Part shown: positions 1,177 through 64,000 of the stretch, in pieces
How the letters are laid out: each line of letters begins with the position of its first letter
How positions within the stretch are numbered: position 1 is the first letter of the stretch
Source of the DNA: Nitrospinota bacterium
GTDB lineage: Bacteria > 2-12-FULL-45-22 > JACOWJ01
Assembly (NCBI GenBank): GCA_016176845.1
Contig: JACOWJ010000025.1
Location: forward strand, 36,428 to 100,427
Direction of reading: 5' to 3'
DNA: 64,000 nt
Notes under the pieces: model-generated
The model's input: only the letters and a program-made list of their open reading frames with translations
What the model was told of the DNA's origin: nothing
The model's database searches: none
Program-made: the position numbers and the translations under genes

Positions 1177-1269
1177 CCAGGCGTTGGGTTCAGGGCTCTG
1201 GGTTTGGCAACCCCGAAGGCTGGAGCCCTGAACCCGACGACCTGGCATACAGATCGTATAGGAATTTCC
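1177..1269. repeat. Palindromic element, GGGTTCAGGGCTC word type
   Basis: An imperfect inverted repeat (arms 1177-1198 and 1223-1245, word GGGTTCAGGGCTC) is followed by the anchor CGTATAGGAATTTCC at 1255-1269. The same anchor accompanies palindromes built from quite different words elsewhere in the window. Confidence 0.75.
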
Positions 1270-1274
1270 GCCAT

Positions 1275-1691
1275 CTATGAGGTATCCTGATCAGCAAAAT
1301 TGCTGACCTTCCACGCCCCGCCTTTTTCCCGAAGGGTGATCAAACACCGCTTCTTATAAGTTCCCGCCTTGGGCACCCGAACCTCTCCCTCGAAGAGAAA
1401 CACCTTGCGAAGTTTTCCTCTCTCCTTGAAATCGACCAGCCGGTAACGGACATCAGGCTTCCGAGTATCCAAGTTAATCTCTACCCCCCGGGTCAGCTCT
1501 AGCTGTTGGTCGATCTTGCTCAAGGCGAGGCCTGTACAGAGTTCCCTGGCCCCCCGAAGGTCTATGGCAACGTAGTAACGGTCCATGAAACGTCGGGCTA
1601 TCCCCTCAGGGGTACTGGCTCCCGGGCCACAGGCCCAGAGCCCCAGGATCCCCACCGCAAGCCCAACCCGAATACTTCGCAAGTGAGCCAT
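1275..1691 (-). CDS. Small predicted lipoprotein
   Basis: The ATG at 1691-1689 gives a 138-residue protein whose signal peptide ends in the lipobox L-W-A-C. A longer frame runs upstream but lies over the preceding gene and lacks a signal, so the shorter start is chosen. The mature part resembles small secreted ligand-binding or NTF2-like (DUF4878-type) domains, with the form IARRFMDRYYVAIDL, then charged beta-rich segments ending in WKVSNF; this assignment is tentative. It starts 5 bases after the stop of the upstream lipoprotein gene, so the two form an operon. Confidence 0.7.
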   Translation of the reverse strand: MAHLRSIRVGLAVGILGLWACGPGASTPEGIARRFMDRYYVAIDLRGARELCTGLALSKIDQQLELTRGVEINLDTRKPDVRYRLVDFKERGKLRKVFLFEGEVRVPKAGTYKKRCLITLREKGGAWKVSNFADQDTS

Positions 1692-1696
1692 CCGTC

Positions 1697-2197
1697 TCAG
1701 TTCTCCTTCCCCGATGGGGGCCCCGCCTCTGAAGAGGTCCCTCCCGCCCCACCGGGTGGGGTCTCCTTCTTTGCCCTGTTGCAATCCTGGAGTCTTCGGC
1801 GGTCCTTCCTGGAAAGCTTCTCCACGAGCTTCAAGCCGCCCAATGGCTGAGAAGTCACCTTGAACTCTCCCTCTCCTCCCCCATGAGAGTTGGGCTGGAA
1901 ATTGTAGACCTCGTTCTCGCAAAGGTAGATCCAGCGCTCCTGGTAACCCTCGCTTTTAAAGACCACATAGTCCGGCTTTCCCTCCTCCAGGTAAATCTTG
2001 AACTTCTCCATGTGCTGGGGGTAAGGGGAATAGAGGGTGTCGAAATGGATTAGGCCGCCTTTCCTCGGGGAACATCCACCCAACAGAAACAGCAGGCCCA
2101 ACCATAGCAAAGCCTTTCCCTTATTGCAGACTCGGTGTTTTAACACAATTGACTCAAGAACTCCAAAGATTTGCGCGTTGCCCTCCCCTTTGGCCAT
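1697..2197 (-). CDS. Predicted lipoprotein
   Basis: A 166-residue frame has a hydrophobic segment ending in the lipobox L-L-G-G-C at about residue 42, which makes the ATG at 2197 give an unusually long n-region. A GTG about 17 codons in (preceded by GGAG) would give a normal signal peptide, so the start is uncertain. The mature protein has a conserved-looking centre (KPDYVVFKSEGYQERWIYL) and a charged C-terminal tail. No family is recognised. It is the first gene of a two-gene lipoprotein operon. Confidence 0.65.
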   Translation of the reverse strand: MAKGEGNAQIFGVLESIVLKHRVCNKGKALLWLGLLFLLGGCSPRKGGLIHFDTLYSPYPQHMEKFKIYLEEGKPDYVVFKSEGYQERWIYLCENEVYNFQPNSHGGGEGEFKVTSQPLGGLKLVEKLSRKDRRRLQDCNRAKKETPPGGAGGTSSEAGPPSGKEN

Positions 2198-2527
2198 GCA
2201 AGCTTCAGGGGCTACGATACGGGACTCCTCTCAAGTGCGCGGTTGCCCTGATTGCGAATCATCATTCAAGGCGAACATCCCCCCGGGAAAGGCGAATCCG
2301 GATGCCTTAATTCATCCATATGATAGCACAAATCCGTTCCCTTGGCCCGATCTGCCCTGTCTCCTCAGGAAAGTAGACAAATTTTGGGGTTTGTCCGGGT
2401 TTTATGATATATTATTTTGGTCGCTAAATCGAGACCGATGCTGTAAAGCTGCGAAGTTTGCCGGGGGATTATGAGGCTCAAATAGATAGAAGGACGAGGT
2501 GGCTAACGGGGAGGAAAGGGAAAGAAG
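2198..2527. other. Intergenic region between divergent genes
   Basis: No gene or repeat was recognised. An AT-rich stretch around 2384-2413 (TTGGGG, 18 bases, TATATT) is the best but weak promoter candidate for mreB. Confidence 0.4.
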
Positions 2528-3553
2528 GTGCTGAACAGCTGGCTGTCGGGGCTGATTATCAAGGGAATCGCAATCGATTTGGGTACGGCCAACACCCTAA
2601 TCTATATCAAAAGCAAGGGCATTGTCTTGGACGAGCCTTCGGTTATCGCAATTTCTGAGAAAAATAGCTCCGTGTTAGCTGTAGGCCGGGAAGCCAAAGA
2701 AATGTACGGAAAGACCCCCGAGTTCATTCGGACCCTTCGACCTATAAAGGACGGGGTCGTCACGGATTTTGAGGTCACTCAACAGATGATCTCTTCCTTC
2801 ATCCTGAGGGTCCTGAAAATCCCCTTCCTCAAGCGAATTCGGATGATTATCGGCGTCCCCTCCGGTATCACCGAAGTGGAGAAACGGGCCGTGATCGAGG
2901 CAGCCAAAAAGGCCCAAGCATGGGAGGTTTACCTGATCCCGGAGCCGATGGCCGCGGCCATTGGCTCCGGCCTTCCCATCCACGAGCCCACCGCCCATAT
3001 GATTGTGGATATCGGAGGCGGGACCACGGAGGCCGCTGTTATCTGTTCTTACGTCGTCTCCTGTTGGCAATCAATCCGGGTGGGGGGAGATGAGATGGAC
3101 GAAGCGATTGCTCATTATGTCCGGGAACGGTTCAACATAGACATCGATATTTTCGAGGCCGAGCGGGTCAAAAAGGCCATCGGTTGCGCGATATCCTTGG
3201 AAGAAAAGTCGGAAATTGATGTCCGGGGGAAGGATCTCTCCACCGAGATGCCGAAAATCATCCGGGTCGATAGCGAGATGATCCGTGAAAGCCTTCGGCC
3301 CACCCTGATGAGCATCGTTGAGGTAGTTCGCAGAACCTTGGAACATATCTCTTCCGCCGTGGCGGCGGATATCTATGACAGGGGACTGACCATTGCCGGC
3401 GGTGGCTCCCTCTTGCGAGGCCTGGCTCCTTTCCTGGAGACAGAAATCAGCCTTCCCGTTCAAATCGCCAAGGATCCCCTGGTGGCCATTGTACGAGGAG
3501 CAGGCTTCGTCCTGGAGAATTTCTCCAGGTATCGACGGGTCTGCATGCCCTAG
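2528..3553 (+). CDS. mreB: Rod shape-determining actin homologue MreB
   Basis: This 341-residue protein is a full-length MreB. It has the phosphate-1 motif AIDLGTANT near residue 15, the phosphate-2 motif VDIGGGTTEAAV near 160, RVGGDEMDEAI, and the adenosine motif TIAGGGSLLRGL near 295. MreB polymerises under the inner membrane and guides elongation-mode peptidoglycan synthesis. The GTG start is preceded by AGGAAAGGGAAAG. Unusually, mreC, mreD and the elongasome genes are not next to it; it stands alone facing an fmdB gene. The segment after phosphate-2 (VICSYVVSCWQSIRVGG) departs from the usual VISLGGIV form, so it may be a second MreB paralogue. Confidence 0.92.
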   Translation: MLNSWLSGLIIKGIAIDLGTANTLIYIKSKGIVLDEPSVIAISEKNSSVLAVGREAKEMYGKTPEFIRTLRPIKDGVVTDFEVTQQMISSFILRVLKIPFLKRIRMIIGVPSGITEVEKRAVIEAAKKAQAWEVYLIPEPMAAAIGSGLPIHEPTAHMIVDIGGGTTEAAVICSYVVSCWQSIRVGGDEMDEAIAHYVRERFNIDIDIFEAERVKKAIGCAISLEEKSEIDVRGKDLSTEMPKIIRVDSEMIRESLRPTLMSIVEVVRRTLEHISSAVAADIYDRGLTIAGGGSLLRGLAPFLETEISLPVQIAKDPLVAIVRGAGFVLENFSRYRRVCMP

Positions 3554-3580
3554 GGCTAAGTACAGCTTATTTCTTGTTCC

Positions 3581-3961
3581 CTATAAGTCGTCGCCCAGGT
3601 CGCCTGAGCCCAAGTCCGGCATGGAGGCTTCGATCTCCTCAGGGCTTTCCCCAGTTTCCAGCCGCTCAACCATCTCGCCGAACTCTTCCCCTAGCTCTTC
3701 TCCCGACTCCTGTCCCATCTTCTTCATCCAGCGGGCGAGACTGCGAGGGTCGTTCTCGTCCAAGTCCCCCAGGTTCCCGGGATCCGCCAGGGCATCCAGC
3801 CGGCTTTCCTCCGATTTGATCACGCTCACTCGGGAGATAAGCCGCCGCAGGTCCCCACCGCCACAATGAGGGCAGGAGGCCTCACGGCTGGCGGAAATCG
3901 TCTTCCATAACTTGGAGAAACGCCTCTGGCAGCTGTTGCAGACATATTCATAGATCGGCAC
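3581..3961 (-). CDS. FmdB family zinc ribbon protein
   Basis: This 126-residue protein begins PIYEYVCNSCQRRF and has a second pair CPHC, together the CxxC/CxxC zinc ribbon of FmdB-type putative regulators. The start is the GTG at 3961-3959 with AGGGGAG ideally placed upstream; the longer ATG frame would run through the tRNA gene and is rejected. The C-terminal half is acidic and probably disordered. It begins 46 bases after the 3' end of tRNA-Sec on the same strand, so cotranscription from the tRNA promoter is likely. Function is unknown. A second, minimal FmdB protein is at 32341-32505. Confidence 0.88.
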   Translation of the reverse strand: MPIYEYVCNSCQRRFSKLWKTISASREASCPHCGGGDLRRLISRVSVIKSEESRLDALADPGNLGDLDENDPRSLARWMKKMGQESGEELGEEFGEMVERLETGESPEEIEASMPDLGSGDLGDDL

Positions 3962-4007
3962 CTGTGGACTCCCCTTTGCTAAGTACCGCTCCACCGCGAT
4001 CAAGATA

Positions 4008-4105
4008 TGGCGGAAGCGCGTGGGAGTCGAACCCACCGAGGACTTTATTAGAGCCCGCCACTGGATTTGAAGTCCAGGAGGGACACCGGAACCCTTTGCG
4101 CTTCC
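4008..4105 (-). tRNA. selC: tRNA-Sec (anticodon UCA)
   Basis: The minus strand folds as a selenocysteine tRNA. It has an 8-bp acceptor stem GGAAGCGC/GCGCTTCC, an anticodon arm CTGGA-CTTCAAA-TCCAG with UCA, a long variable arm, a T-arm GTGGG-TTCGACT-CCCAC, discriminator G and an encoded CCA. The total of 98 bases fits the bacterial class. It decodes UGA in selenoprotein mRNAs after charging with serine and conversion by SelA, whose gene is at 16353-17813. selB and selD are not in the window. Confidence 0.96.
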
Positions 4106-4114
4106 TTGCCGGTT

Positions 4115-4143
4115 ATTTTAAGGACCTTTCCTGCTCCTGTCAA
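4115..4143 (-). promoter_or_regulatory. Sigma-70 promoter of tRNA-Sec
   Basis: On the minus strand TTGACA (4143-4138) and TAAAAT (4120-4115) are separated by exactly 17 bases, and the tRNA 5' end lies 10 bases beyond the -10 box. This is among the best-matching promoters in the window. Confidence 0.85.
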
Positions 4144-4176
4144 GTCTTCTCCATCGAACCCCCACCAAGGACCTCC

Positions 4177-4227
4177 ATGACCGAAAAAGCCAAGGAGAAC
4201 AGGGAGTTTCGGGATAGACCGTTAAAG
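4177..4227 (+). repeat. EFSDRPLK-type dispersed element, copy 1
   Basis: The plus strand could encode a start-like peptide ending in EFRDRPLKLL but has no gene here. Its complement TTTAACGGTCTATCC gives the TAA stop of the MamK-like gene. Related copies are at 15094-15141, 28884-28900 and 62329-62373. Confidence 0.55.
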
Positions 4228-5265
4228 CTGCTGCCAATACTCCAGGGGCATGTCCATGGCCAACTTCAAGGCACCCTGGGCCCCGGCATAGATCGGATCG
4301 TCCACCACGATGACCTTTCCCCCGCCCAGATCCGCCATGTTCTCTTCCAGAAGCTTATCCAGCCTCCGGATCTGGCTGCATCCCCCGGCCAGGATGACAT
4401 TGTTGCGGAGCGTGGTCTGGAACTCCGGATCGAAACTGCCGACCAGCTCACGGATAGCCTCCACGATGTCGGGCACGATGCTTTCGCAGGCCCGTTTCAT
4501 CTCGTCGGTGACATCGTAGGGGACCAGCTTCCCCCTTACGGGGAATTCCGCCACCACGCCGTCCGGGGTATGAGAGACGAATCCGTGCTTTTCTTTGCAG
4601 AGGCGGGCCATATTCCGGGTTAGTTGGGCCTCCTTGCATTTCTCCTGCAGGAGCCGATAAAGCAGCTCGTCGATATAGTCCCCAGCTTTGAGGACCGTGC
4701 GCTGATCCTCCTCCTCAGGGATCGTACCATGCATCCGGCATAGATCGGTCGTTCCCGCTCCGATGTCAATGATCAGCCCGTACTTGAGGAAATCACGTCC
4801 GTAGGCCACAGTAAAGGGCTCGGAGACCACCATGGCCGCGTCCAGCACCTCCCGACTCGCATCGATCAGGGCCTCTTTGTTGAAGAGATTGGCACGAGCT
4901 GGCGCTCCGATCACCCCGTAGACCTTCTCGCCAGGTGTGGGCTCCGCCAGGCTGACCAGGTGTCGAACCAACTCCTTGGCCGCCTGGCGGGCCTGCCCCT
5001 TCTCTTCGGGGCTGGCGCTGCTCTCATCCTCCAGGGTGTGCTTGATTACCCCTTTCTCCAGAGGGCGGCAGAGATTCAAGAGCAGGCGGTTTTCCAAGGC
5101 CTCTTCCCCAAAAACGATGGACCGTTGGTTCATTAGCCTTTGAGCAATGGCATCTTTGGGCCACCCCACCAGGCTGAGCAAGGTCTTTTTCCCCCCTTTG
5201 CTGGTACAGATGGAGCTCCGAAAGGTCCCCAGGTCGATCCCAATGTAGAGGTTCTCTCCTCTCAT
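4222..5265 (-). CDS. mamK: MamK-like bacterial actin
   Basis: This 347-residue actin-fold ATPase matches the MamK family rather than MreB or ParM. It has IGIDLGTFRSS near residue 8, LVGWPKDAI, the stretch VSEPFTVAYG, the phosphate-2 motif LIIDIGAGTTDL, a GTIPEEEDQ segment, NNVILAGGCSQIRRL for adenosine binding, and the C-terminal ending EYWQQL. MamK filaments align magnetosomes in magnetotactic bacteria; homologues also occur outside magnetosome islands. The ATG at 5265 has a strong AAGGAGG site eight bases upstream and is preferred over two upstream in-frame ATGs. No other mam or mad gene is nearby, so magnetosome function cannot be inferred. Confidence 0.85.
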   Translation of the reverse strand: MRGENLYIGIDLGTFRSSICTSKGGKKTLLSLVGWPKDAIAQRLMNQRSIVFGEEALENRLLLNLCRPLEKGVIKHTLEDESSASPEEKGQARQAAKELVRHLVSLAEPTPGEKVYGVIGAPARANLFNKEALIDASREVLDAAMVVSEPFTVAYGRDFLKYGLIIDIGAGTTDLCRMHGTIPEEEDQRTVLKAGDYIDELLYRLLQEKCKEAQLTRNMARLCKEKHGFVSHTPDGVVAEFPVRGKLVPYDVTDEMKRACESIVPDIVEAIRELVGSFDPEFQTTLRNNVILAGGCSQIRRLDKLLEENMADLGGGKVIVVDDPIYAGAQGALKLAMDMPLEYWQQL

Positions 5266-5341
5266 CGCCCCTTCCTCCTTCATCGAAACAGGAGAGCCTT
5301 CTCCCTGCTCTACCATCGTCCTGTTCCTCCTATGGCCTCTG

Positions 5342-6033
5342 TCATTTCGGTTCCCCTTCGACATGGTTCAAACAAGAACGGATCTGCTCCAGGCCCTCCC
5401 TGAGGACTGCCAGGGCCTTTCGGACTTCTTCCTCTCGGCCGGGTCCTTTCCCCCGCAATTCGAGAGGAGCCTCTTTGGCCAGATTATTCTCTCCGCCCAC
5501 TGGACGAGTTTTTTTTTTGTGCTGGCGACCACCCCTAACTTTTCCAGCTTCCAAAGACCTCCTTTCGGGCCTGGAGGATTTACCCCTCCTTGAATAGGCT
5601 CGCTCCCCTCGTCAGAACTGATGGGAACTTGCTCCAGAGATTCGGGGAAACCCCCCTCCACGCTGGGAGAATCCACCGAACCTTTTTTTCCCGTGAAAAT
5701 GACCGAGTCTTCCATGAGCCCATTTTCCTGCTTGGGGGCGGTCAACTCGACTTTGCCATGGTTTAGTTCGCCCCTCTGAGGAGGTAGATCGCCCTGGCTG
5801 TCGCGGGCTCCGACCCCCTCCCCATTTCGGCTCAAGTCGATTCCGATACGGAGGCCTTCAGGCTCGCACCAGATACGGACGCAAACCTCCCTTTTCCCGT
5901 CGAGGAGCTCCTTCAATAGCTCTAACCATTCCATCAGGATCAGATCCCTCTGGACGGCGCTCCATCGAGCGAAGGCGACCGTCGCGTAAGGTTCCCTGGC
6001 GCGAGGAAGAGGACCCAAAATGGTGAGGGCCAA
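5342..6033 (-). CDS. Unknown gene with apparent frameshift at A10 run
   Basis: Two overlapping minus-strand frames look like one gene. The upstream frame (TTG at 6033 or ATG at 5934) has a plausible N-terminus including MEWLELLKELLDG and RIWCEPEGLRIGIDL, then a polar linker. Beyond a run of ten A residues (T at 5509-5518 on the plus strand) that frame becomes Trp/Ser/Arg-rich, whereas the -1 frame continues with a protein-like, heptad-rich tail ending CLNHVEGEPK at 5342. Either the run is a slippage or -1 frameshift site, or the assembly lost a base. The gene lies 76 bases upstream of the MamK-like gene and may be its partner. No family is recognised. Confidence 0.55.
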
Positions 6034-6081
6034 AGACCCTTCATCCTCCCTCTCAGATAAAAAGTTAAAGTATAGCTAGCT

Positions 6082-6110
6082 AAGCTAGAAAATTTCTCGC
6101 TATTTGTCAA
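6082..6110 (-). promoter_or_regulatory. Candidate promoter for 5342-6033 / mamK-like operon
   Basis: TTGACA (6110-6105) is followed after 17 bases by TAGCTT (6087-6082) on the minus strand. The -35 is perfect and the -10 is weak. Confidence 0.4.
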
Positions 6111-6126
6111 GCTTTTCCCTTTCACC

Positions 6127-6155
6127 TTGTGGGGTGGCTGATCCTGTGCTATATT
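6127..6155 (+). promoter_or_regulatory. Candidate promoter of M16 peptidase gene
   Basis: TTGTGG (6127-6132) and TATATT (6150-6155) are 17 bases apart. The leader of about 150 bases contains an inverted repeat GCGGCCT/AGGCCGC. Confidence 0.5.
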
Positions 6156-6313
6156 TTCTCCTAGATTTTAGGCGGCCTTACTCCGTTCCGGAGGTCGGTC
6201 AGGCCGCTCTCACCTCTGGCTTACATCCGAGGGTTTTTACCACAAACTTTCGAAATGGACCAACCCCGCTTTGGACGTAAACATCTGGCAAATCGTTGCG
6301 CGGCCTCAAGCAC

Positions 6314-9181: not shown

Positions 9182-9195
9182 AGGAATCATGATCC

Positions 9196-9345: not shown

Positions 9346-9348
9346 TCA

Positions 9349-9412
9349 TTAGCTCGTAGCTCATGGCCCATAGCTGATAGCTGCTATGAGCCATGAGCTA
9401 CGAGCTATGGGC
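9349..9412. repeat. Palindromic element, AGCTCGTAGCTCATGG word type
   Basis: A perfect 18-bp inverted repeat (9350-9367 and 9390-9407) encloses a second nested pair CCCATAGCT/AGCTATGGG. The right arm supplies the last codons and the TAG stop of the PHP gene on the minus strand. Confidence 0.8.
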
Positions 9413-10138: not shown

Positions 10139-10167
10139 TTGACGCCGCTCTTCACCCTCCGTATAAT
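10139..10167 (+). promoter_or_regulatory. Sigma-70 promoter
   Basis: TTGACG (10139-10144) and a perfect TATAAT (10162-10167) are 17 bases apart. It should drive the secreted protein at 10239 and the PHP gene behind it. Confidence 0.8.
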
Positions 10168-11243: not shown

Positions 11244-11264
11244 GGGAGCGAACCCAAGAAAGGT

Positions 11265-11363
11265 AAGTTTTAGGTGTTAAGTTTTAGGTTTCTTGCTTAA
11301 CACTTAAAACCTGAAACCTAAAACTTTCCCGTAAATCCTGTCCAAAAAGAAAATTCCTATGCG
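11265..11363. repeat. Palindromic element, AAGTTTTAGG word type
   Basis: Inverted arms of the words AAGTTTTAGGTGTT and its complement meet at a short TTTCTTGC centre. They are followed by a conserved tail with CGTAAATCCTGTC and the anchor GAAAATTCCTATGCG at 11349-11363. A near-identical copy with the same tail is at 32582-32692. Confidence 0.85.
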
Positions 11364-11369
11364 ATTGAA

Positions 11370-21073: not shown

Positions 21074-21186
21074 TTCGATCGAACGAATCGAATCCTCTCG
21101 ATCCCGAGCGTGATGCTCCGTCATCATTTGATTTATGTGATGGACGATGATAGATTAGATTTAAGGTTCGGAGATAAACCATGGTC

Positions 21187-21291
21187 AAGTTAGGAGTTAG
21201 GGATTAGGGACTAGGGGCTAGTAAGAAAGAAGAGCTTTTGCTAATCCCTAGCCCCTAGTTCCTAGCCCCTAAAAATGGAAATTCCTATACG
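21187..21291. repeat. Palindromic element, TTAGGGA/CTAGGGG word type
   Basis: Left arm words TTAGGGATTAGGGACTAGG and the complementary right arm surround a centre (21219-21247) that is identical in the copies at 35081-35168 and 41066-41158. The anchor GGAAATTCCTATACG follows at 21277-21291. The element ends about 30 bases before the histidine kinase start. Confidence 0.9.
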
Positions 21292-21319
21292 TTTGAATTA
21301 ATGGTTCAAGAAGGGGCTG

Positions 21320-23155: not shown

Positions 23156-23340
23156 CCTTCGCTCGATTTCTCCATCCCTTTGCCGGCGGGGATCGTCATC
23201 CGTTTGGCGCCGATTGCCACAGTCTCCTCAAGGAGGAGCCCCTCGCCATGCCGCGCCAGGGAGCCCTCCAGTGGTTCTTTCTCCTTCTCCTTAATAAAAC
23301 AGGGCTAAGAAGGAGTTTTTTAAATCCTAATTTAATCGCA

Positions 23341-23425
23341 AGGAATTTCTTTTTTTAGGGATTGGGGCCTGGGATTAGCGAAAGCCTTTCTTAACCAATC
23401 CCTAGTCCCTGGTCCCTAATCCCTG
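23341..23425. repeat. Palindromic element, TTAGGGA word type, degenerate
   Basis: The anchor half AGGAATTTCTTTTTTT at 23341 leads into AGGGATTGGGGCCTGGGATT and a complementary right arm ending near 23425. It is more diverged than the 21187 copy. Confidence 0.65.
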
Positions 23426-25747: not shown

Positions 25748-25839
25748 AAGTTTTAAGTTTTAGGTTTTAAGTTGAAACCTAAAACCTAAAACCTAAAACC
25801 TAAAACCTAAAACCTATTTTATAAGGTATAGGAATTTAC
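25748..25839. repeat. Palindromic element, AAGTTTTAGG word type
   Basis: A left arm of TTTTAAG/TTTTAGG words meets a longer right arm of about seven AAACCTA words, then the anchor GTATAGGAATTTAC at 25826-25839. It lies directly upstream of the citrate synthase start. Confidence 0.85.
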
Positions 25840-28950: not shown

Positions 28951-30486
28951 ATGCGCGTATTGCTCTTGAATCCTCCCAGGAGGATCTCTCCCCAAAGGCA
29001 GGAGGTGATCGTCAATGCTCCCCTGGCCGCCTGCCTGATCACGGGCTACATCGCCGCCACGCTCAGGGCGGCTCGGATTCCCGTGGAGGTCCTGGAGGCA
29101 GACCTGGAGGGCTGGGATCTCGATCAGACCGCCTCCGCTATCGCTTCAACGCGAGGCATGGGAGAGAGGCTCCTCCTGGGGGTCCACCTGGTCTACCAGT
29201 GGGAGGAGACCCTGGATATCCTCCGGATGTTGGAAGGGCTCAAGGCGGAAGGGAACCTCGATCACTTGAGCCTCTATGGGTTTTTTCCTACCTTTGCCTG
29301 GCGGGAGCTGTTGGGCCTTTTCCCTTTCGTGGATTCGATCGTGCGGGGAGAGCCCGAGCTCACCTTTTTAGAGTTGGTCCGCCGGCTATCCGGAGGCCAT
29401 GAGTGGAGGGATGCGCGGGGGCTGGCCTGGATGGACCAGGGGAGGCTTCAGCTCAACCCCGCCCGGCCCCTCATCGATCCCTTGGATCCGCTCCCCTTTC
29501 CGTTGCGCCCGCCCCCTTCCCTGCTCCAGGGGCGAAATCCGGATAACTACCTGTTGGGAAGTCGCGGATGTTATAATCACTGCTCCTTCTGCTATCTCAC
29601 CCCCTTCTATCAGGGGCAGCGGCGCTGGCGGGGCAGGACCCCGCAGAATATCGTCTCCGAGATTGGGCAGGTGCTGGAGGAGACGGGCTCCTCTTCCTTC
29701 TATTTCGCGGATGCCAATTTCTTTGGTCCGGGCGAAAAGGGACAGGAGAGGGCCCGAGAGCTGGCCCGGATTCTTCGGGGGGAGGGTCTCTCCATCCGTT
29801 TCGGGCTGGAGTGTCGGGCCAACGACGTCCAAGAGGAGACCCTGGCCCAGCTGCAGGAGGCCGGTCTGACCCACCTGTTTGTCGGGATCGAGAGCGGCTC
29901 CGATGAGGTCCTCGGGCTGATCGAGAAGAACACCACCGCTTCGATCAATGAGGAGGCCGTCCGGACGGCTCAACGGTTGGGATTGAAGCTCTCTACCGGC
30001 TTCATCATGTTCGAGCCCGATGCCCGGTTGGGCCATATCCGCGAGAGCTTCGAGTTTTTGAAAAGGCTCGGCCTGCTGCGCTCCCCTTCGATCACGGCCC
30101 ACCTGCTGCACCATCCCCTCGTCGTCCTGCGCGGCACCAAGTCCTTCTCCCGCTTGCTCTCCCAGGATCGGCTGGCGGTAGATCCCCTCTTGCAATACGA
30201 GGGGCGATATCGGTTCGTTGACCCCCGGGTGGAGTCCCTGGCACAGCTCATGACGCGAATAAGTTGCCGGGCCTTGCAGACCAATGAAGACCAGGACTAC
30301 GATCCCCAAGAAGGCTGTTATCGCATTCCCCATGCTTTGGAAGGGGAGCGGCTTCGCCGTCTGAACGACTTGCTGATCGATACCTTCGCCCGGGCATTGG
30401 AATGGCTGGAAGCAGGAGGAGACGGACCGGCCCGGGAAGGATTGGTTCCCCTGGAGGAGGCGTTCTCCAGAGAGATTGTAAAGTGA
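28951..30486 (+). CDS. Cobalamin-binding-type radical SAM protein
   Basis: This 511-residue protein begins MRVLLLNPPRR, typical of B12-binding-domain radical SAM enzymes. The degenerate B12 domain is followed at about residue 204 by the cluster motif GCYNHCSFC (CxxxCxxC), then a TIM-barrel with FVGIESGSDEVL. Substrates of such proteins include lipids, hopanoids and peptides; this one cannot be assigned. GGAGGG stands upstream of the ATG. The TGA stop sits at the edge of the palindromic element at 30483-30612. A second member of the class is at 62329-63888. Confidence 0.85.
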   Translation: MRVLLLNPPRRISPQRQEVIVNAPLAACLITGYIAATLRAARIPVEVLEADLEGWDLDQTASAIASTRGMGERLLLGVHLVYQWEETLDILRMLEGLKAEGNLDHLSLYGFFPTFAWRELLGLFPFVDSIVRGEPELTFLELVRRLSGGHEWRDARGLAWMDQGRLQLNPARPLIDPLDPLPFPLRPPPSLLQGRNPDNYLLGSRGCYNHCSFCYLTPFYQGQRRWRGRTPQNIVSEIGQVLEETGSSSFYFADANFFGPGEKGQERARELARILRGEGLSIRFGLECRANDVQEETLAQLQEAGLTHLFVGIESGSDEVLGLIEKNTTASINEEAVRTAQRLGLKLSTGFIMFEPDARLGHIRESFEFLKRLGLLRSPSITAHLLHHPLVVLRGTKSFSRLLSQDRLAVDPLLQYEGRYRFVDPRVESLAQLMTRISCRALQTNEDQDYDPQEGCYRIPHALEGERLRRLNDLLIDTFARALEWLEAGGDGPAREGLVPLEEAFSREIVK

Positions 30487-30612
30487 AAATTGTAAATTGC
30501 AAAATGCAAAATGCAAAATGCAAAATTAAATTTAGCGTATAGGAATTTCCTTTTTTTGCTATGAGCTAATTTACCAATTTGCAATTTGCAATTTGCAATT
30601 TGCATTTTTCAA
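30483..30612. repeat. Palindromic element, GCAAAATG word type
   Basis: A left arm of GCAAAATG/GAAAATTG words and a right arm of AATTTGC words flank the anchor GCGTATAGGAATTTCC (30535-30550) and a GCTATGAGCTAATTT word found also at 31170-31197. The radical SAM stop codon lies at its left edge. Confidence 0.85.
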
Positions 30613-31147: not shown

Positions 31148-31154
31148 TTTAAAA

Positions 31155-31200
31155 GCATAGGAATTTTCTTTTTTCGCTATGAGCTATGAGCTAATTTAAC
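31155..31200. repeat. Anchor plus GCTATGAGCTATGAGC words
   Basis: The anchor GCATAGGAATTTTC at 31155-31168 is followed by a few GCTATGAG words that run right up to the ATG of the next gene, leaving no ribosome site. Confidence 0.7.
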
Positions 31201-32505: not shown

Positions 32506-32581
32506 AACTCATCCCTCCCTTCTCTCTGCCTCCTGCCCCATCCTTTCCTGGGTGCGGCAGCTTTGCCCATCTTCAGTTTTC

Positions 32582-32692
32582 AAGTTAAGTTTTAAGTTTT
32601 AGGTGTTAAGTTTTAGGTTTCTTGCTTAACACTTAAAACCTGAAACTTAAAACTTTCTCGTAAATCCTGTCTAAAAAGGAAATTCCTATACG
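32582..32692. repeat. Palindromic element, AAGTTTTAGG word type
   Basis: Nearly identical to the element at 11265-11363, including the tail with CGTAAATCCTGTC and the anchor GGAAATTCCTATACG (32678-32692). It abuts a second element of another word type. Confidence 0.9.
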
Positions 32693-32696
32693 ATCA

Positions 32697-32791
32697 AGTT
32701 AGGGATTAGGGACTAGGGGCCGGTGAAGAAGAATTTTGGCTAACACTTAGCCCCTGGCCTCTAGCCCCTCAAAAATGGAAATCCCTATGCA
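32697..32791. repeat. Palindromic element, TTAGGGA/CTAGGGG word type
   Basis: Arms of TTAGGGATTAGGGACTAGG type with a diverged centre end in the anchor variant GGAAATCCCTATGCA. It is placed head to tail with the preceding AAGTTTTAGG element, so two word types share one intergenic site. Confidence 0.85.
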
Positions 32792-32868
32792 TTAAAATAA
32801 TTCTCCCAGGGCGAATTTGCAAGGGGAATCTTTCCAAGGAAGACCTTTGGGAGTGTTTTGGTTGGCTC

Positions 32869-39688: not shown

Positions 39689-39702
39689 TGGCTACCTCCC
39701 TT

Positions 39703-39789
39703 TAGGAATTTCCATTTTTTGAGATTGCTTCGTCGCTGGCGCTCCTCGCAATGACAAAATTGGGTGATTGCGAGCGAAGCGAAGCAATC
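39703..39789. repeat. Anchor plus GATTGCTTCG...GCAATC palindrome
   Basis: The anchor AGGAATTTCC at about 39705 leads into GATTGCTTCGTCGC and its inverted partner GCGAAGCGAAGCAATC (ends 39789). The palindrome type occurs in many bacteria; here it is fused to the local anchor, as at 48138-48221. Confidence 0.85.
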
Positions 39790-39792
39790 TAA

Positions 39793-39865
39793 GTACAACT
39801 CCACGTAAATAAGTATCCAAAATAGCCTGGAGAATAAATGGATACTTTATTGTGTGGAGGTGTAC
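39793..39865. repeat. 73-bp hairpin with GTACA termini
   Basis: Inverted arms GTACAACTCCAC...AAGTATCCA and TGGATACTTT...GTGGAGGTGTAC (39793-39819 and 39839-39865) form one long imperfect hairpin. It is joined directly to the preceding palindrome. Confidence 0.75.
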
Positions 39866-41015: not shown

Positions 41016-41065
41016 GCTTTTTCCTCCCCAGAATCTTTGGTGAAAACACAGAATGGGCCGGGACC

Positions 41066-41158
41066 AAGTTAGGGATTAGGGGCTAGGGACTAGTAAGAAA
41101 GAAGAGCTTTTGCTAATCCCTAGCCCCTAGCCCCTAAAATAAGGAAATTCCTATAAGG
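41066..41158. repeat. Palindromic element, TTAGGGA/CTAGGGG word type
   Basis: The centre at 41091-41120 is identical to the 21187 copy, and the anchor variant GGAAATTCCTATAAGG lies at 41143-41158. Confidence 0.9.
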
Positions 41159-48126: not shown

Positions 48127-48137
48127 CTCGATCGCAA

Positions 48138-48350
48138 AGGAATTTCCATTTTGAGATTGCTTCGTCGCTATCGCTCCTCGCAATGACCCGATTTTGTCAT
48201 TGCGAGCGAAGCGAAGCAATCTAAGTTCTAGTTCATAGCCAAGGCCTATGAACTATGAACTATGAACTATGAGCTATGAGCTATGAACTATGAGCTATGA
48301 ACTTTGAGCTATGAGCTATGAACTATTATGATGAGCTTTGAACTATGAAC
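48138..48350. repeat. Composite repeat: anchor, GCAATGAC palindrome, GAACTATG words
   Basis: The anchor AGGAATTTCC (48139-) is followed by the GATTGCTTCG palindrome (48155-48221) as at 39703. Then comes a tandem tract of GAACTATGAACTATGAGCTA words to 48350. The dnaB start codon is one of the ATG triplets in this tract. Confidence 0.9.
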
Positions 48351-49763: not shown

Positions 49764-52386
<2,623 letters not shown>

Positions 52387-56902: not shown

Positions 56903-57011
56903 GAATAACGGTCTACCGGGCTATTTATTTTTTCTAGAGTCCTTTACGCAGCTCGCGCCGGGTGTCCCGGCAAGCATACCGCAAGGCAGACAGGGAGGGG
57001 GTATCGCTGCA

Positions 57012-58124
57012 ATGAATGTCCCTTTGCTCGACCTGAAAGCTCAATATGCCACGATCCGGGCAGAGGTCCGGGAGGCGATCGACCGGGTTTGCGAGTCTCA
57101 GCATTTCATCCTGGGGCCGGAAGTCATGGCGTTGGAGGAAGAAATAGCGGCCTTTTGCGGCGCGCGGTTCGCGGTCGGGGTGTCGTCAGGAACCGATGCG
57201 CTCCTGGCATCGCTGATGGCCATAGGGATCTGCCCGGGAGATGAGGTCATCACCACCCCTTACTCCTTTTTTGCCACAGCGGGAGTGATCGTCCGGCTCG
57301 GAGCCCGCCCCATCTTTGTAGACATCGATCCGACGACCTTTAACCTGGATGCCGGCGCAGTGCCTGAGAAGGTCACGTCCCGGACAAAAGCGATCCTGCC
57401 CGTTCACCTGTTTGGACAGTGTGCCGAAATGGGTCCGATTCTGAGGGCCGCCGATGAACATGGGATTGCGGTGATCGAAGACGCGGCCCAAGCCATTGGG
57501 ACGCGGGATGATCGGGGAAGAACGGCCGGAACCATGGGGCATGTGGGCTGTTTTTCTTTTTTCCCGAGCAAGAACCTCGGTGCATTCGGCGACGGGGGCA
57601 TGGGGATTACGAATGACGTGGGGCTGGCCGAAACCTTACGGGTGCTTCGCGTCCACGGCAGCAAGCCCAAGTACTACCACCGGATTGTCGGAGGGAATTT
57701 CCGGTTGGACGCCCTCCAGGCGGCAGTTCTCCGAGTGAAATTAAAGTATTTGACGGCATGGACCGAAGCGCGCCGTCGCAACGCTGAGCGGTACCGGACA
57801 TTGTTCAAAGAGGTGGGATTGCAGGAGCAGGTCACCCTACCCGATGATGTACCCGGGCATATCTACCATCAGTTTGTCATCCGATCCACGGATCGCGATC
57901 GCCTCCAGGAATTCCTGCGGGAGCGAGGTGTGGGAACTGAGGTCTACTACCCCCTTCCTCTTCATTTACAGGAATGCTTCAAGGACCTTGGCTACCGAAA
58001 AGGAGACTTCCCCCAGGCGGAGGCTGCCGCACAGGAGTCGCTGGCCCTGCCGATTTATCCAGAATTGACCGAGGCCCAGCAGCGGTATGTCATTGGACAG
58101 GTCAAGGAGCTCTACGACCGATGA
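57012..58124 (+). CDS. DegT/DnrJ/EryC1/StrS family aminotransferase
   Basis: This 370-residue PLP enzyme has [14 protein letters not shown] at the start, [23 protein letters not shown] and the PLP-lysine motif [16 protein letters not shown]. Such enzymes aminate keto-sugars for cell-surface glycans. The ATG at 57012 is chosen because the family starts there; a longer frame passes through the repeat. Linkage to other sugar genes is weak: a DPM1-like transferase is 3.4 kb downstream. Confidence 0.92.
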
Positions 58125-58175
58125 AGGCTGCTCTCATCGCGAGGGCATGCGAACAGTGAATCGTCATAAGGCATC

Positions 58176-59300
58176 ATGCAGAGCCAGGCATTGAACTATT
58201 CCCCCAGAGGAATCATCCTCCTGTTGCTAGCCGTCCTCTTAACCCCGGGCTGCATCTTGCTGCCCACCTTTGAGGGTCGACCTGCCAACCCCGGTGGCCT
58301 CGGGGCCCCTTTCGAGGATGGCTACCGGGATTTTAAGGGGGTGATTCACTGTCATTCCAAGTATTCTCACGACAGCCAGGGGTCCCAGGAGGAGATCATC
58401 GGGGCCGCAAAGAGGACCGGGATGAACTTCCTCATCATGACGGATCACCCCTCCTCGAAGGCTATCCCCAGGGGGCTCAAGGGATGGCACGAGGGCATCT
58501 TCTTCTTGGTGGGGGCCGAGCTCTCTCAAGGGGGATGGAGCATGCTGGCTCTGGACATCCGACAGTACCTCGAGCAGGACCAACCGACCCAGCAGCTCCT
58601 CGAGGAGATCAAGGGGCAGGAAGGATTGGCCTTCGTGGGTCACATGGAGGGCGTCAAGACCTGGGATTTCGAGGGTTATGACGGCCTGGAGGTCTATAAT
58701 GTCCATGCCGATCTCGCTGGGGATCCCCGATTAACCATGCTCCTGAAGGCCCTATTTCTTCCTCCCAACTTTTTCTATGCCAGCAGCGTGGACCGTCCCA
58801 GCCGGAACCTGGCCAGATGGGATGAACTTTCCCGGGAGAGAAAGGTGGTGGCCATCGCTGGGAATGATGCCCATGCCAACGTGAAGCTTTTTTTTGGGGT
58901 GGCAGGAACCGTGGGGCCTTATGAGCAGGTCTTCAAGATTGTCTCCACCCATATCCTGGCCAAGGAGGTCAACCAACAGGCCCTCAGGGACGCCCTGAAG
59001 CAGGGCCACTGTTATTTCTCCATGGACATATTCGGAGATGGGACCGGGTTCAAGCTCCTGGCCCAGGACGGCCATCGGCAGGTCATCATGGGAGATGAGA
59101 TCGAATGGAGCTCCAGCCTGGAGCTCAAGGCTTATAGCCCCGGTCGGGGACGGATAAAGCTGCTCAAATCGGGTCAGCTGGTCCACCAGGTCGAGGGACA
59201 GCTGTTGGACTACCGGCCGCCGGGGCCCGGCGTGTACCGGGTGGAGGTGTATCGGAAGGGCAGGTTTTGGCTCTGCTCCAACCCCATCTATGTGAGGTGA
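58176..59300 (+). CDS. PHP domain lipoprotein
   Basis: This 374-residue protein has a signal peptide ending in the lipobox L-T-P-G-C, then a PHP domain with VIHCHSKYSHDS near residue 56, FLIMTDHPS near 85, VGAELSQ and AIAGNDAHANV near 229. A beta-rich C-terminal domain of about 90 residues follows. A PHP hydrolase tethered to the envelope is unusual, as most are cytoplasmic. The two-component genes follow after 21 bases and may be cotranscribed. Confidence 0.85.
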   Translation: MQSQALNYSPRGIILLLLAVLLTPGCILLPTFEGRPANPGGLGAPFEDGYRDFKGVIHCHSKYSHDSQGSQEEIIGAAKRTGMNFLIMTDHPSSKAIPRGLKGWHEGIFFLVGAELSQGGWSMLALDIRQYLEQDQPTQQLLEEIKGQEGLAFVGHMEGVKTWDFEGYDGLEVYNVHADLAGDPRLTMLLKALFLPPNFFYASSVDRPSRNLARWDELSRERKVVAIAGNDAHANVKLFFGVAGTVGPYEQVFKIVSTHILAKEVNQQALRDALKQGHCYFSMDIFGDGTGFKLLAQDGHRQVIMGDEIEWSSSLELKAYSPGRGRIKLLKSGQLVHQVEGQLLDYRPPGPGVYRVEVYRKGRFWLCSNPIYVR

Positions 59301-59321
59301 CCGCTCTTACCGGAGTCAAGG

Positions 59322-59993
59322 ATGCATATTCTCATTGTGGAAGACGAGAAGAAAACGGCGGATTACCTCCGCAAGGGGCTCTCGGAAAACGGCTTCGTCG
59401 TGGATGTCGCTGTCCAAGGCGAGGATGGACTCCACCTCGCGCTGGTGGGCAATTACGACCTGGTTATCCTGGATGTGATGCTCCCCGAGAGAGATGGATG
59501 GTCCGTGCTGGTCGAAATTCGGCGCCGGGGAAAACCAACTCCCGTCCTCTTCCTGACGGCACGCGACTCGATTCCAGACCGGGTCAAAGGCCTCGAGTTG
59601 GGCGCGGACGACTACCTGGTGAAGCCCTTCGCCTTTTCGGAACTGCTCGCTCGGGTGCGTTCCATCCTTCGTCGTGGCCCGGCCCGGCAGCCTGAGATAC
59701 TCTGCATCGCCGACCTGGAGATCGATCTGATGAGACACAAGGCAACGCGCGGGGGACAGTACCTCGACCTTACCCCGAAGGAGTTCGCCCTTCTGTCTCT
59801 CCTGGCCCGGCGAACGGGCGAGGTCCTGTCCCGGACCCTGATCGCGGAGCAGGTCTGGGACATGAACTTCGACAGCGACAGCAACGTCGTGGATGTGGCA
59901 GTCCGCCGGCTTCGGGGAAAGGTCGACGATCCGTTCCCCAAGAAGCTGGTTCACACCGTCCGTGGGGTAGGCTATGTCCTCGAAGAGCGTTGA
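59322..59993 (+). CDS. OmpR-family response regulator
   Basis: This 223-residue protein has a receiver domain ([12 protein letters not shown], Asp52 in [10 protein letters not shown], Lys102 in LVKPF) and a winged-helix DNA-binding domain with [24 protein letters not shown]. It resembles CopR/CusR-type heavy-metal regulators. It overlaps the kinase gene by 20 bases, so the pair is translated together. Confidence 0.93.
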
Positions 59994-61473
59994 GAACCCC
60001 TCAGGCGATCGGGCCCCGCTGGCTTCCTCCTGGTTCTGGTCGATCACGGGCCGGTTAACCTTTCTATACACCCTGGCAGCCTTTGGAATGCTCGTCGTGG
60101 CCACCGTTTTTTTGTACTGGGTGCTCCTAAGCAATTTGGAAGGGGAAAACGAGCAGTTCCTTGCCGATCAGATTCATGTTCTCCGCGTTATTTTGTGGGA
60201 ACGCCCCGATGATCTCGTAGCCTTAGAGATGGAGATCAAAAGGGAGGGAGCCTCCCGCCAGTTTACCAAATATTATGCCAGGGTTCTGGACGAAGGAGGG
60301 CACACCCTGATCGAGAGGCCCGGCATGGGAGATATCCTCCCTGCCTCGTTGTTTCCCGATGATCCCATGGATCTCGATGAATTGTCGGGAGCGGGGGATC
60401 AATGGAAGTCGCGTGACGGCCGGTCGTACATTTTGATGGCCGCATGGGCGGAAGCGGGTCGCTCAGGGGGAAAACGGCAAATTCAAGTCGCCTTGGATGT
60501 GTCACACCAGGAGGCCCTCATCGCCGACTATCAGGGAAAGCTGGCGATTGTGCTCGTTTTGGGGATCTTGTTCTCCGCGGGGGCTGGGGTTGCCGTTGCT
60601 CGGCGAGGAATGCGCCCGCTGGCGGAGATCACCCAGGCAGCCCAGCGGATCACGGCAACTCAGCTCCATGAACGGATCGGCCCGGCGCGATGGCCTAAAG
60701 AGCTGACCGCCCTGGCCACCGCCTTTGACGAGATGCTGAATCGTCTCGAGGACTCCTTTACCCGGCTATCCCAATTTTCCTCGGATCTGGCTCACGAATT
60801 GCGCACGCCGATCAATAACCTCATGGGGGAAGCCGAAGTCGCTCTCTCTCGGGCCAGAACGCCGGACGAATACCGGCAGGTCCTTGAATCGAGCCTTGAG
60901 GAGTATGTGAGACTGTCCCGGATGATCGACAATTTGCTCTTCCTGGCCCGTGCTGAAAGCCCAGAGACCCGGATCGAACGATCCCAGTTCGACGCCCTCA
61001 AAGAAATTAGCGCGGTTCTGGAGTTTTATGAGGCCGTAGCGGAGGAGCAAGGGATCGAGGTGACCTGCCATGGGAATGGTTCATTACATGCAGATATCAT
61101 CCTATTTCGGAGGGCATTGAGTAACCTGCTCTCCAATGCCTTCCGATACACCCCATGCGGAGGAAAGATTCGTATTTTCATCGAACCGTCGGATGGTCAA
61201 TCTGTCAAAGTTAAGGTCAATGACACGGGCTCCGGGATCGATCCGGGACACCTACCGAGAATCTTCGACCGCTTTTACAGGACAGACCATGCGCGATCCC
61301 AATACCCTCAAGGAACGGGGCTGGGACTGGCAATCGTCAGGTCCATTATGGATCTTCACGGCGGCACGGTCACGGTCCAAAGCGAACGCGGCAAAGGGAC
61401 GGGGGTAACCCTGGATTTTCCCCGCCGGGCTGAGCCTTCTCTTCAAGATGACGGAACTGTAATTTTTCTGTAA
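59974..61473 (+). CDS. Membrane sensor histidine kinase
   Basis: This 499-residue kinase has two transmembrane segments (about residues 27-50 and 185-205) around a periplasmic sensor, a HAMP linker, the H-box [16 protein letters not shown] near residue 270, N-box [14 protein letters not shown]1 [11 protein letters not shown] and G2 GTGLGLAIV. It resembles CusS-type heavy-metal sensor kinases. It pairs with the regulator encoded just upstream. The signal is not known. Confidence 0.92.
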
Positions 61474-61562
61474 GTTTCTCGTCAGAGTCGAGATGGCATT
61501 ATATCCCTATTTGTGGAAATACCTAAATACCGCGTTAGCACGCTTTCCAATAGGGCCTGGGA

Positions 61563-62324
61563 ATGAGCAAGATCTTCGTTACCATACCCACTTACAACGA
61601 ACGGGACAACATCTTTCAATTGGTGAATGAGATCCTGAGGTTGCCGGGAGAGATCGAAATTGTGGTGGCCGATGACGACTCTCCCGATGGGACGTGGCAA
61701 GTGGTGCTGGGGCTAACTCAGCGGGAACCTCGGGTTCACCTGCTCCGCCGGACCGAAGACAAAGGCAGGGGTCGGGCAGGGGTGGATGCCTTCCGTTACG
61801 CCCTGGATCATGATGCCGAAGTGATCTTCGAGATGGATGGGGATCTCTCCCATCACCCCCGATATATCCCGTTGCTGTTGAAAGAGGTCCGCTTTCATGA
61901 CCTGGTTATCGGATCTCGCATCGTATCCGGGGGGGTAGATGCCCGGAGCTCACGTCTCCGTAAGGCCGTCACGCAGACCGCCAATGCTTACGCCCGATGG
62001 TTGTTGGGGGTCCCCGTTCGGGATTGCAACTCCGGATTCCGTTGCTTCCGACGAGAGGTTTTAGAAGGAATCGACCTGGATTCGATCGTCTCGAAGGGGC
62101 CATCCATCGTCCACGAGATCCTATACAAGGCCCACCAGCGGGGTTTCTCGATGAAAGAGGTCCCGATCCACTTCGAGGACCGCCAGGCCGGGCAATCCAA
62201 TTTGAATCTGAAGAAGCTCCTCTTTTCGGCCTGGATGGTCCTGAAGCTCAGGGGATCGGCAGGCTGGATCCCGATGAAACCAGGCCAGACCCGCAGAGCC
62301 AGCGAAACGACGGAGGCCAGGTAA
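61563..62324 (+). CDS. Polyprenol-phosphate mannosyltransferase-like GT2
   Basis: This 253-residue protein has the DPM1-type GT2 motifs FVTIPTYNERDNI, VVADDDSPDGT, FEMDGDLSHHPRYIP, VIGSRIVSGG and RDCNSGFRCFRREVL. It should transfer a sugar from a nucleotide donor to a polyprenyl phosphate carrier at the inner membrane. No C-terminal GtrA-like membrane domain is present. The next gene, a radical SAM protein, starts four bases after its stop. Confidence 0.9.
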   Translation: MSKIFVTIPTYNERDNIFQLVNEILRLPGEIEIVVADDDSPDGTWQVVLGLTQREPRVHLLRRTEDKGRGRAGVDAFRYALDHDAEVIFEMDGDLSHHPRYIPLLLKEVRFHDLVIGSRIVSGGVDARSSRLRKAVTQTANAYARWLLGVPVRDCNSGFRCFRREVLEGIDLDSIVSKGPSIVHEILYKAHQRGFSMKEVPIHFEDRQAGQSNLNLKKLLFSAWMVLKLRGSAGWIPMKPGQTRRASETTEAR

Positions 62325-62328
62325 ACCC

Positions 62329-62373
62329 TTGTCCAAATTAGAGAAAGGAGAATTCTCGGATAGACCGTTAAAG
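62329..62373 (+). repeat. EFSDRPLK-type dispersed element, copy 4 (coding)
   Basis: GAGAATTCTCGGATAGACCG (62348-) and flanks match copies at 4177 and 15094. Here alone the element is the translated N-terminus of an intact gene. Confidence 0.55.
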
Positions 62374-63888
62374 GTCCTTTTGGTCAGGGCCCGGTCTTAT
62401 CAGATCGGGAAGCTCGAGCATCCGTATCACATCTACCCTTCCTTGACTTTAAAATATATCGAAGCCCTGCTCAAGGCCAAGGAGGGTTACCAGGTAAGGC
62501 TGTGGGATTGCTGGACCGATCCTCAGCCCCTGGAGGACCTGGTGGCCAATACCCGGCTTTGGCTCCCCGACCTGTTGGTCATTTTGGCCAACCCAGTGGA
62601 TGCGGAGATGGCCTTCCAATATGCTTCGGGGGTCAAGGCCGGCGGATCGCAAGCCCTGATCGTAGCGATCGGACCCGAGGTCACCCTGAGCCCGGAGAAG
62701 TTTTCGGTTGCCGGTTCCCCTTTTGATGCCGCCCTGCCTGGCGAGGCGGAGCTGGAGATGGTTTCCCTGGCGGAGAGGCTCCGCCAGGGCCTGGAGCCCG
62801 AGGAGGTCCGGGCCCAATCCCTCCGATTCCTGCGAGAGGAGCCGGAGCCCCTGTTGATCCCGGATCTGGATGATCTCCCTTTCCTTAGCTATAGCCCGGA
62901 AGAGCTCCGGAGATACCAGTTTATCTACCCTCTTCGGATGAAGAAGAAGGCCCGGTGGGGCTTCATCCTCTCTAGCCGGGGCTGTCCCAATCCCTGCATC
63001 TTTTGCTCTCCGATTATGCGCAAAAGCTACGGTCGAAAGGTAAGAACCCGAAGCGCAACCCACGTCGTCGATGAGATCGAGCACTTGATGAAGCTCGGCG
63101 TTACCGTGATCTCCTTCGAGGACGATGATCTGACGGTAGACCGCCGGCACCTGCTCTCTCTCTGCCAGGAGATCCGGAAAAGATCGGTGAAGATCCCCTG
63201 GATCGCCCATGCCCGGGTGGATGAGCTCTCTCCTCCTCTGCTTCGTTCCATGCGGGAGGCGGGTTGCGTTTTGCTGCGGCTGGGGGTGGAGTCCGGCTCG
63301 GAGAGGATCATCCGGATGCTCAAGAAAGACCCCCAAGCAGAGGCCTCGCGGCAGGGAAAAGCCGGGGACTCCAACGGGGGCGGGGGAGCAGGCGGGAACG
63401 GGGCCGGGGGAGCAGGGGAGATTTTCCCTCCGCTCGTCGGTCCCAGCCCTGCCAATGGCTGGAGACAGAAATGTATTGCGGCCTTCCAGGAGATCCGGAA
63501 GGTCGGCATCGCCACCAATGCCCTCTTCATATTGGGCAGCCCTGGGGAGACCCGGGAGGAGATGGAGGAGACCATCCGGCTGGCCCACGATCTGCGGCCG
63601 GATATGATCCAGGTCCACTTCTTCACCCTCTATCCGGGCTCCCCGGCTTACGAGCAGTTCCGTGATCGGATCACTCCGGGGGAGATTCCCTCCCTCCATC
63701 ACTATCATATTACGACGAACCTCAGCACGATCGGATCTCAAGAGCTCCGGCAGATCCGGTCGCGATTCTATAAGGGTTTCTTGCTGCGTCCCCCTTTTCT
63801 GCTGGAGCATCTCTATCGTTATGGCCTCTTTTATCTGCGCAACCCCGAGGTAGTGCGTCGCCTCTGGGAGATTACCAGAGTTTTCTAA
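62329..63888 (+). CDS. Cobalamin-binding-type radical SAM protein
   Basis: This protein of about 519 residues begins with the EFSDRPLK element and KVLLVRARSY of the B12-like domain. The cluster motif is RGCPNPCIFC near residue 220, and LRLGVESGSERIIRMLKKDP continues the barrel. A Gly-rich in-frame insertion (GGGGAGGNGAGGAG) encoded by a GGGGAGC repeat interrupts the barrel near residue 355. The TTG at 62329 has GGAGG about 12 bases upstream; the start is not certain. It is coupled to the glycosyltransferase gene, so a glycolipid or lipid substrate is conceivable. Confidence 0.85.
   Translation: MSKLEKGEFSDRPLKVLLVRARSYQIGKLEHPYHIYPSLTLKYIEALLKAKEGYQVRLWDCWTDPQPLEDLVANTRLWLPDLLVILANPVDAEMAFQYASGVKAGGSQALIVAIGPEVTLSPEKFSVAGSPFDAALPGEAELEMVSLAERLRQGLEPEEVRAQSLRFLREEPEPLLIPDLDDLPFLSYSPEELRRYQFIYPLRMKKKARWGFILSSRGCPNPCIFCSPIMRKSYGRKVRTRSATHVVDEIEHLMKLGVTVISFEDDDLTVDRRHLLSLCQEIRKRSVKIPWIAHARVDELSPPLLRSMREAGCVLLRLGVESGSERIIRMLKKDPQAEASRQGKAGDSNGGGGAGGNGAGGAGEIFPPLVGPSPANGWRQKCIAAFQEIRKVGIATNALFILGSPGETREEMEETIRLAHDLRPDMIQVHFFTLYPGSPAYEQFRDRITPGEIPSLHHYHITTNLSTIGSQELRQIRSRFYKGFLLRPPFLLEHLYRYGLFYLRNPEVVRRLWEITRVF
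63374..63437. repeat. GGGGAGC-type repeat inside radical SAM gene
   Basis: A GGGGGCGGGGGAGCAGGCGG tract with a short inverted CCCTCCGC partner is read in frame. It is the same word type as the alr insertion. Confidence 0.7.
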
Positions 63889-63944
63889 CTTGACAATGTC
63901 AAGGATCGTGGACTAAATAACTTGCCCATTTGGTTCCCTGCAGA

Positions 63945-64000
63945 AAGTTTTAGGTTTTAGGTTTTAAGTTTTAAGCCCTAAAACCTAAAACCTAAAACTT
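63945..64000. repeat. Palindromic element, AAGTTTTAGG word type, cut by window edge
   Basis: A left arm of GTTTTAGG words and the start of a CCTAAAAC right arm are visible; an anchor would lie beyond the window. Confidence 0.85.

Follow-up and report, generated by a model that had tools for sequence, protein, structure and literature searches.

The window analyzed here, a 64-kb stretch from the genome of a Nitrospinota bacterium, carries palindromes that a first-pass annotation had located correctly and had described as often sharing a 15-base anchor (GGAAATTCCTATACG) beside arms built of different repeated words. Most elements follow a common plan in one orientation, in which a left motif of the form T-N-x-A-N'-x-T-A is succeeded by a body, the anchor and a second T-N-x-A-N'-x-T-A, hereafter the target motif. 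On the forward strand, TAGGG-heptad hairpins form the bodies of the mini-elements at 21185..21292 (anchor 21277-21291, followed by the target TTGAATTA, in which N and N' pair; left motif TCAAGTTA; DNA fold z -3.5) and 41064..41158 (anchor 41143-41157; fold z -5.5). A GTTTTAG-heptad hairpin constitutes the body at 32580..32693 (anchor 32678-32692, left motif TCAAGTTA, fold z -4.9); in tandem with it, starting exactly at its target motif, lies a TAGGG-type element at 32694..32792 with a decayed anchor (32777-32791) and a fold z of only -1.5. Another GTTTTAG-type body, at 11258..11364, has a two-mismatch anchor (11349-11363), a decayed left motif, an approximate start and a fold z of -2.6. On the reverse strand we recovered an anchored body type absent from the first-pass annotation, a GATTGCTTCG..CGAAGCAATC hairpin, at 39698..39797 (two-mismatch anchor 39699-39713, left motif TGTACTTA, target motif not recognizable, fold z -4.1) and 48132..48229 (two-mismatch anchor 48133-48147, left motif AGAACTTA, target TCGAGCTA, fold z -6.6). 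Five of the seven folded window bodies accordingly span z -3.5 to -6.6, the other two being those at -2.6 and -1.5. Smaller reverse-strand elements comprise a 47-bp unit with two GCTCATA words at 31153..31199 (decayed anchor 31154-31168; left motif and target both TTAAATTA) and a 40-bp unit, GTAAATTAGCTCATAGCAAAAAAAGGAAATTCCTATACGC, at 30535..30574, with N and N' paired in both motifs. A TAGGG-type palindrome at 23337..23424 on the same strand, assigned by reading the sequence, has a decayed anchor at about 23337-23349, the target TTAAATTA at 23328-23335 and a left end that is not resolved.

About half of the palindromes first listed in the window are thus anchored elements (those at 11265, 21187, 32582, 32697, 41066, 31155 and, with a decayed anchor, 23341), but membership is not uniform, as those at 9349, 13771, 35081, 37924 and 48228 have no anchor. 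At 30483 the 40-bp element is present, but the GCAAAAT heptad palindrome that encloses it is independent. Two further palindromes stand beside an anchor: that at 1177 lies on the target side of an exact anchor (1255..1269, reverse strand, no recognizable target motif), and the heptad array at 25748 on the target side of an anchor-like site with two mismatches (25825..25839, reverse strand, no paired target motif); both are on the wrong side and hence are not the bodies of these anchors. The palindrome at 63945 is cut by the end of the window. The window also holds an anchorless tandem array with an 8-bp period (GGAGCGGG-type) at 50554-50619 and, on the minus strand at 4008-4105, a selenocysteine tRNA gene, which was the only match in an Rfam search.

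The anchor itself is far above chance, with nine window matches at up to two mismatches against 0.06 expected. An exact-match search of the whole genome gave 43 copies, and the reversed pattern gave none. The genome-wide search that the first-pass annotation had proposed, run on about 1.48 Mb of the 1.53-Mb metagenome-assembled genome (MAG) read as stretches, recovered 43 exact, 77 one-mismatch and 44 two-mismatch copies, against 0, 0 and 5 for the reversed control. The conserved unit extends beyond the 15 bases originally recognized, to a motif of about 29 bp, AAAAW-GGAAATTCCTATRCG-ATNxAN'xTA, in which conservation ends sharply after position +23. We also observed that positions +14 and +15 (the last anchor base and the next base) covary genome-wide as GA or CT.

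Folding is stronger in the 90 nt upstream of the anchor than in the 90 nt on the far side of the target (p=2e-5) or in random non-ORF DNA (p=6e-12), and the anchor is therefore not equally common away from palindromes, the circumstance under which the first-pass annotation would have regarded the family as an artefact. Crude ORF calls span 82% of the sequence but contain only 16 of 120 good anchors, indicating that the elements are mainly intergenic. They measure about 40-140 bp, exceed 100 copies per Mb, and place one anchor beside several unrelated hairpin bodies, as had been claimed for its words. At least six kinds of body can be distinguished, namely TAGGG, GGGGACA, GTTTTAG and GCTCATA heptads, the GATTGCTTCG hairpin and CCCCCC stems, in addition to others; the repeated words are mostly 7-mers, and copies of each body type are dispersed together with their anchor.

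We then compared orthologous filled and empty sites, as had also been suggested, in a close pair of genomes (G073 and G070, 93% identical over 2.3 kb). G073 contains about a dozen near-identical 72-bp copies with unrelated flanks, by means of which the corresponding places in G070 were located. Four alignments are clean, the remaining pairs being rearranged or alignable only in part, and in each of the four G070 lacks the complete unit, which runs from TCAAGTTA through the base following the anchor, and retains an intact host motif (TCAAGCTA, TTAAATTA, TTAAATTA and TCCAGTTA). The palindrome units are inserts: at the four clean sites the unit sits 5' of a host T-N-x-A-N'-x-T-A, with an element-coded copy of the motif at its left end, and the clean empty sites establish that the right motif is the host target, that the left motif belongs to the element and that nothing is duplicated. 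The target core is CAAG, GAAC, TAAA or AAAT. Flanking repeats were not in excess over shuffled pairs, and the element ends are not inverted copies of each other; MITEs of DDE transposons, which we had considered, were rejected on the lack of both terminal inverted repeats and target duplication.

These insertions bear directly on two other accounts of the palindromes. The idea first suggested, in situ reconstruction of the arms through local templated synthesis at the anchor, would accommodate the different words on one anchor and the register of some word arrays with a terminal TTA; nonetheless, units enter empty sites whole, and near-identical copies dispersed among unrelated flanks in one genome bear the same body, such that we consider this account extremely unlikely and templated arm synthesis is not needed. 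A second account takes the anchor for a separate small dispersed repeat, comparable to the SDRs of Nostoc, whose insertions land next to hairpins and heptad arrays. Both heptad arrays and GATTGCTTCG hairpins do exist without the anchor, as do anchors without a clear body, yet clean sites gain body and anchor as a single unit and each body type is dispersed with its anchor, leaving little room for such a repeat.

Within the target, N (+17) and N' (+20) covary as Watson-Crick complements (CG 64, TA 39, AT 17 and GC 11 of 160; mutual information 0.875 bits, z 43). The left motif covaries likewise, being complementary in 107 of 130 cases, and within one element the left N does not depend on the right N. 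Complementarity also holds at 86% of 144 sites in other genomes, compared with the 34-46% expected per set if N and N' were independent. As near-identical copies have entered targets of differing identity without loss of the N/N' complementarity, the pairing resides in the target itself, with no guide in the element dictating it. This is difficult to reconcile with mobilization of the palindromes by an IS200/IS605-type (single-tyrosine, Y1) transposase or a RAYT, as in REPIN- or PATE-like elements, whereby a hairpin is recognized and an element-coded guide pairs with the cleavage site. Such an origin would account for the hairpins, the absence of target duplication and the resemblance of one element end to the target, and Y1_Tnp is encoded in 22 of 27 anchor genomes; against it, Y1_Tnp (PF01797) is absent from the window's own genome, which also lacks RAYTs, and from a genome with 42 copies (G061), and no anchor flanks the Y1 genes examined. 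We hence regard it as improbable. Integron attC sites, whose motif is GTTRRRY, were also dropped, because it is not matched by left ends like ATTAG and CTTAG. Whether the target is recognized via the internal base pair N/N' of TNxAN'xTA, in place of fixed bases, we judge to be evenly balanced; if it were, the base-pair rule would explain the acceptance of both GAAC and CAAG by IS91-type elements and imply an HUH transposase that reads a folded single-stranded target, thereby offering a simple, testable rule for possible target choice by IS91-type transposases.

A candidate for the mobilizing enzyme came from other genomes bearing the anchor. One locus (L296) encodes an intact 429-aa protein with Zn_Tnp_IS91 and Y2_Tnp domains (PF14319, 5e-21; PF04986, 2e-30), an HLH motif at 167-169 and a YxxxY motif at 253-257, and this gene lies within a 1.54-kb element bearing both ends (at about 1029 and 2569): close to the gene on its 5' side are the anchor and a hairpin, and the opposite end carries TGAACATA and a GCACC-TTCG-GGTGC hairpin. 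A relative with an internal deletion (L307, in G072; 92% and 85% identity in two parts) has the same two ends in other flanks; this deleted IS91-type element, at about 970-1360, stands just behind what appears, by eye only, to be a tmRNA gene. Three further loci (L316, L312 and L318) contain pieces of IS91 genes with the anchor just 5' of the gene. In all five of these loci the gene runs away from the anchor end, the presumptive origin, whereas the IS91 gene of Shigella (L337) runs towards its origin. A hairpin left end, GCGCACC..GGTGCGG, is shared by the mini-elements of G061. Y2_Tnp was detected in 8 of 15 anchor genomes, a sample that was not random, against about 6 of 57 others (Fisher p 0.0009). 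No intact transposase of the L296 group was found in the incomplete MAGs of the window's own genome or of G061 with its 42 copies. The sole Y2_Tnp trace in the former is a short decayed piece of a different IS91 type (start of L295/L048, G000:C24:137-214), and the driver enzyme is therefore either missing from the assembly or lost. Relatives of the transposase in Piscirickettsia showed no TTCCTATAC end in the stretches read, and no recurrent genes lay beside anchors in the first set of loci.

Based on the insertion of whole units, their two defined ends, the absence of duplication, the target motif, the variety of bodies and the one intact, bounded transposase gene, all of which are observed, we propose that the elements represent miniature, non-autonomous IS91-type transposons (rolling-circle, HUH/Y2), a reading to which we assign a probability of about 0.87. 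What we infer is that the chemistry is rolling-circle, that the transposase acts in trans and that read-through exchanges the bodies. The anchor would be the origin (ori) end, lying directly against the host target, and the other end, with its element-coded copy of the target motif and its hairpin, would act as the terminator (ter). A transposase supplied in trans would nick the junction of ori and target, displacement of one strand would continue as far as a hairpin with a target-like motif, and the displaced strand would be joined 5' of a new target without duplication. Only ori would need to be constant, as a palindrome behind a suitable motif could serve as ter, and read-through (one-ended transposition) could by this means place one anchor on unrelated bodies. 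The first-pass annotation was thus right that simple copying does not explain a constant anchor with unrelated bodies, and close in supposing that the anchor recruits its arms, except that the anchor would be a transposon origin and the arms its interchangeable other ends.

We favor read-through, if by little, as the principal origin of new bodies. Sequences that could serve as bodies are also found with no anchor, as in 29 of 47 GATTGCTTCG places and likewise for the heptads, and so could have been captured as terminators. Mosaics also exist, in that five different anchor-proximal segments accompany the GGGGACA left end and several left ends are each combined with several such segments; read-through at the left end alone does not explain them, and recombination or template switching may contribute. 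Together, mosaics and captured repeats are consistent with one-ended rolling-circle products.

These elements are known in kind, being of IS91 type, and unusual in form. IS801 uses the targets GAAC, GGAC, CAAG and CGAC, a tetranucleotide resembling these opens its left end, its constant right end is taken as essential, and its one-ended miniatures of 229, 360 and 679 nt combine that right end with other left ends (PMC3189936). The earlier statement that no named family has this property consequently does not hold, as members of the IS91 family have been reported to vary in their left ends, located at target-like tetranucleotides, while the right end stays constant (PMC3189936). The elements described here share with IS801/IS91 these features, GAAC/CAAG-type targets and recruitable neighboring DNA, but differ in the additional target cores TAAA and AAAT, the longer target motif TNxAN'xTA, their 40-140 bp size, their density of >100 copies per Mb, their bodies, which have no relation to the transposase gene, and an autonomous element whose gene points away from ori. 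ISCR1 has the right end (oriIS) GTGGTTTATACTTCCTATACCC (PMC13023784), and the right end of the Shigella IS91 is CAATTTCCTATACG, followed by TGAAC; TTCCTATAC is common to both and to the anchor, the similarity being limited to about 9-12 nt. In ISCR1, too, one origin end is able to mobilize neighboring DNA, although there oriIS is downstream of the gene and the cargo is large, whereas the elements described here have ori on the 5' side of the gene and carry a hairpin as cargo. As in IS91, an HUH/Y2 transposase with a zinc domain lies within an element with the same ends, oriIS is conserved, duplications and inverted repeats are absent, and the target is of GAAC/CAAG type. The origin does not lie downstream of the transposase gene, an order that we view as the arrangement in characterized IS91 members and as unnecessary for the mechanism.

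Helitrons such as Helraiser (PMC4778049) also combine an HUH enzyme, no target duplication, a hairpin terminator near one end, capture of flanking DNA by read-through and many non-autonomous copies, but their eukaryotic RepHel enzyme, CTRR end and AT target have no counterpart here. REPIN/RAYT systems (PMC3116915, PMC3733652) resemble these elements in having dispersed intergenic palindromes and an enzyme encoded elsewhere, and differ in their GTAG tag and Y1 enzyme, the latter absent here. The heptameric repeats of Xanthomonas and Nostoc are also intergenic 7-mer arrays, some in inverted pairs, for which no general tie to mobile elements was found (PMC4692102), whereas many of those described here lie inside IS91-like mini-elements. 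We consider the miniaturization, the spread across many phyla, the transposase facing away from the origin and the Watson-Crick covariation of N and N' to be new; IS91 goes unmentioned in a review of prokaryotic MITEs (PMC10969869), and the IS801 work was the only literature on IS91-derived miniatures found, in a partial coverage that makes this weak evidence of novelty. The proposal attributes a mobile origin to a group of intergenic palindromes and heptad repeats with no apparent relationship in sequence, extends IS91-type elements down to about 40 bp with interchangeable terminators, and points to a way in which such elements can exchange their contents while remaining mobile.

A scan of one genome per species recovered a 21-nt pattern in 57 stretches from many phyla, the MAG assignments including Desulfobacterota, Latescibacterota, Cloacimonadota, Planctomycetota and others in a list that is approximate, some contigs being possibly misbinned. 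Each anchor genome has its own bodies, and 26 such genomes each contain between 1 and 77 copies of an 18-nt pattern, for which the control gave no matches. In the elements of the window's own genome and in three Cloacimonadota loci (L374, L376 and L377), heptad arrays of different words begin in register with the element's terminal TTA (TTAGGGA, TTAGCTC, TTAAGTT and TTACGGG).
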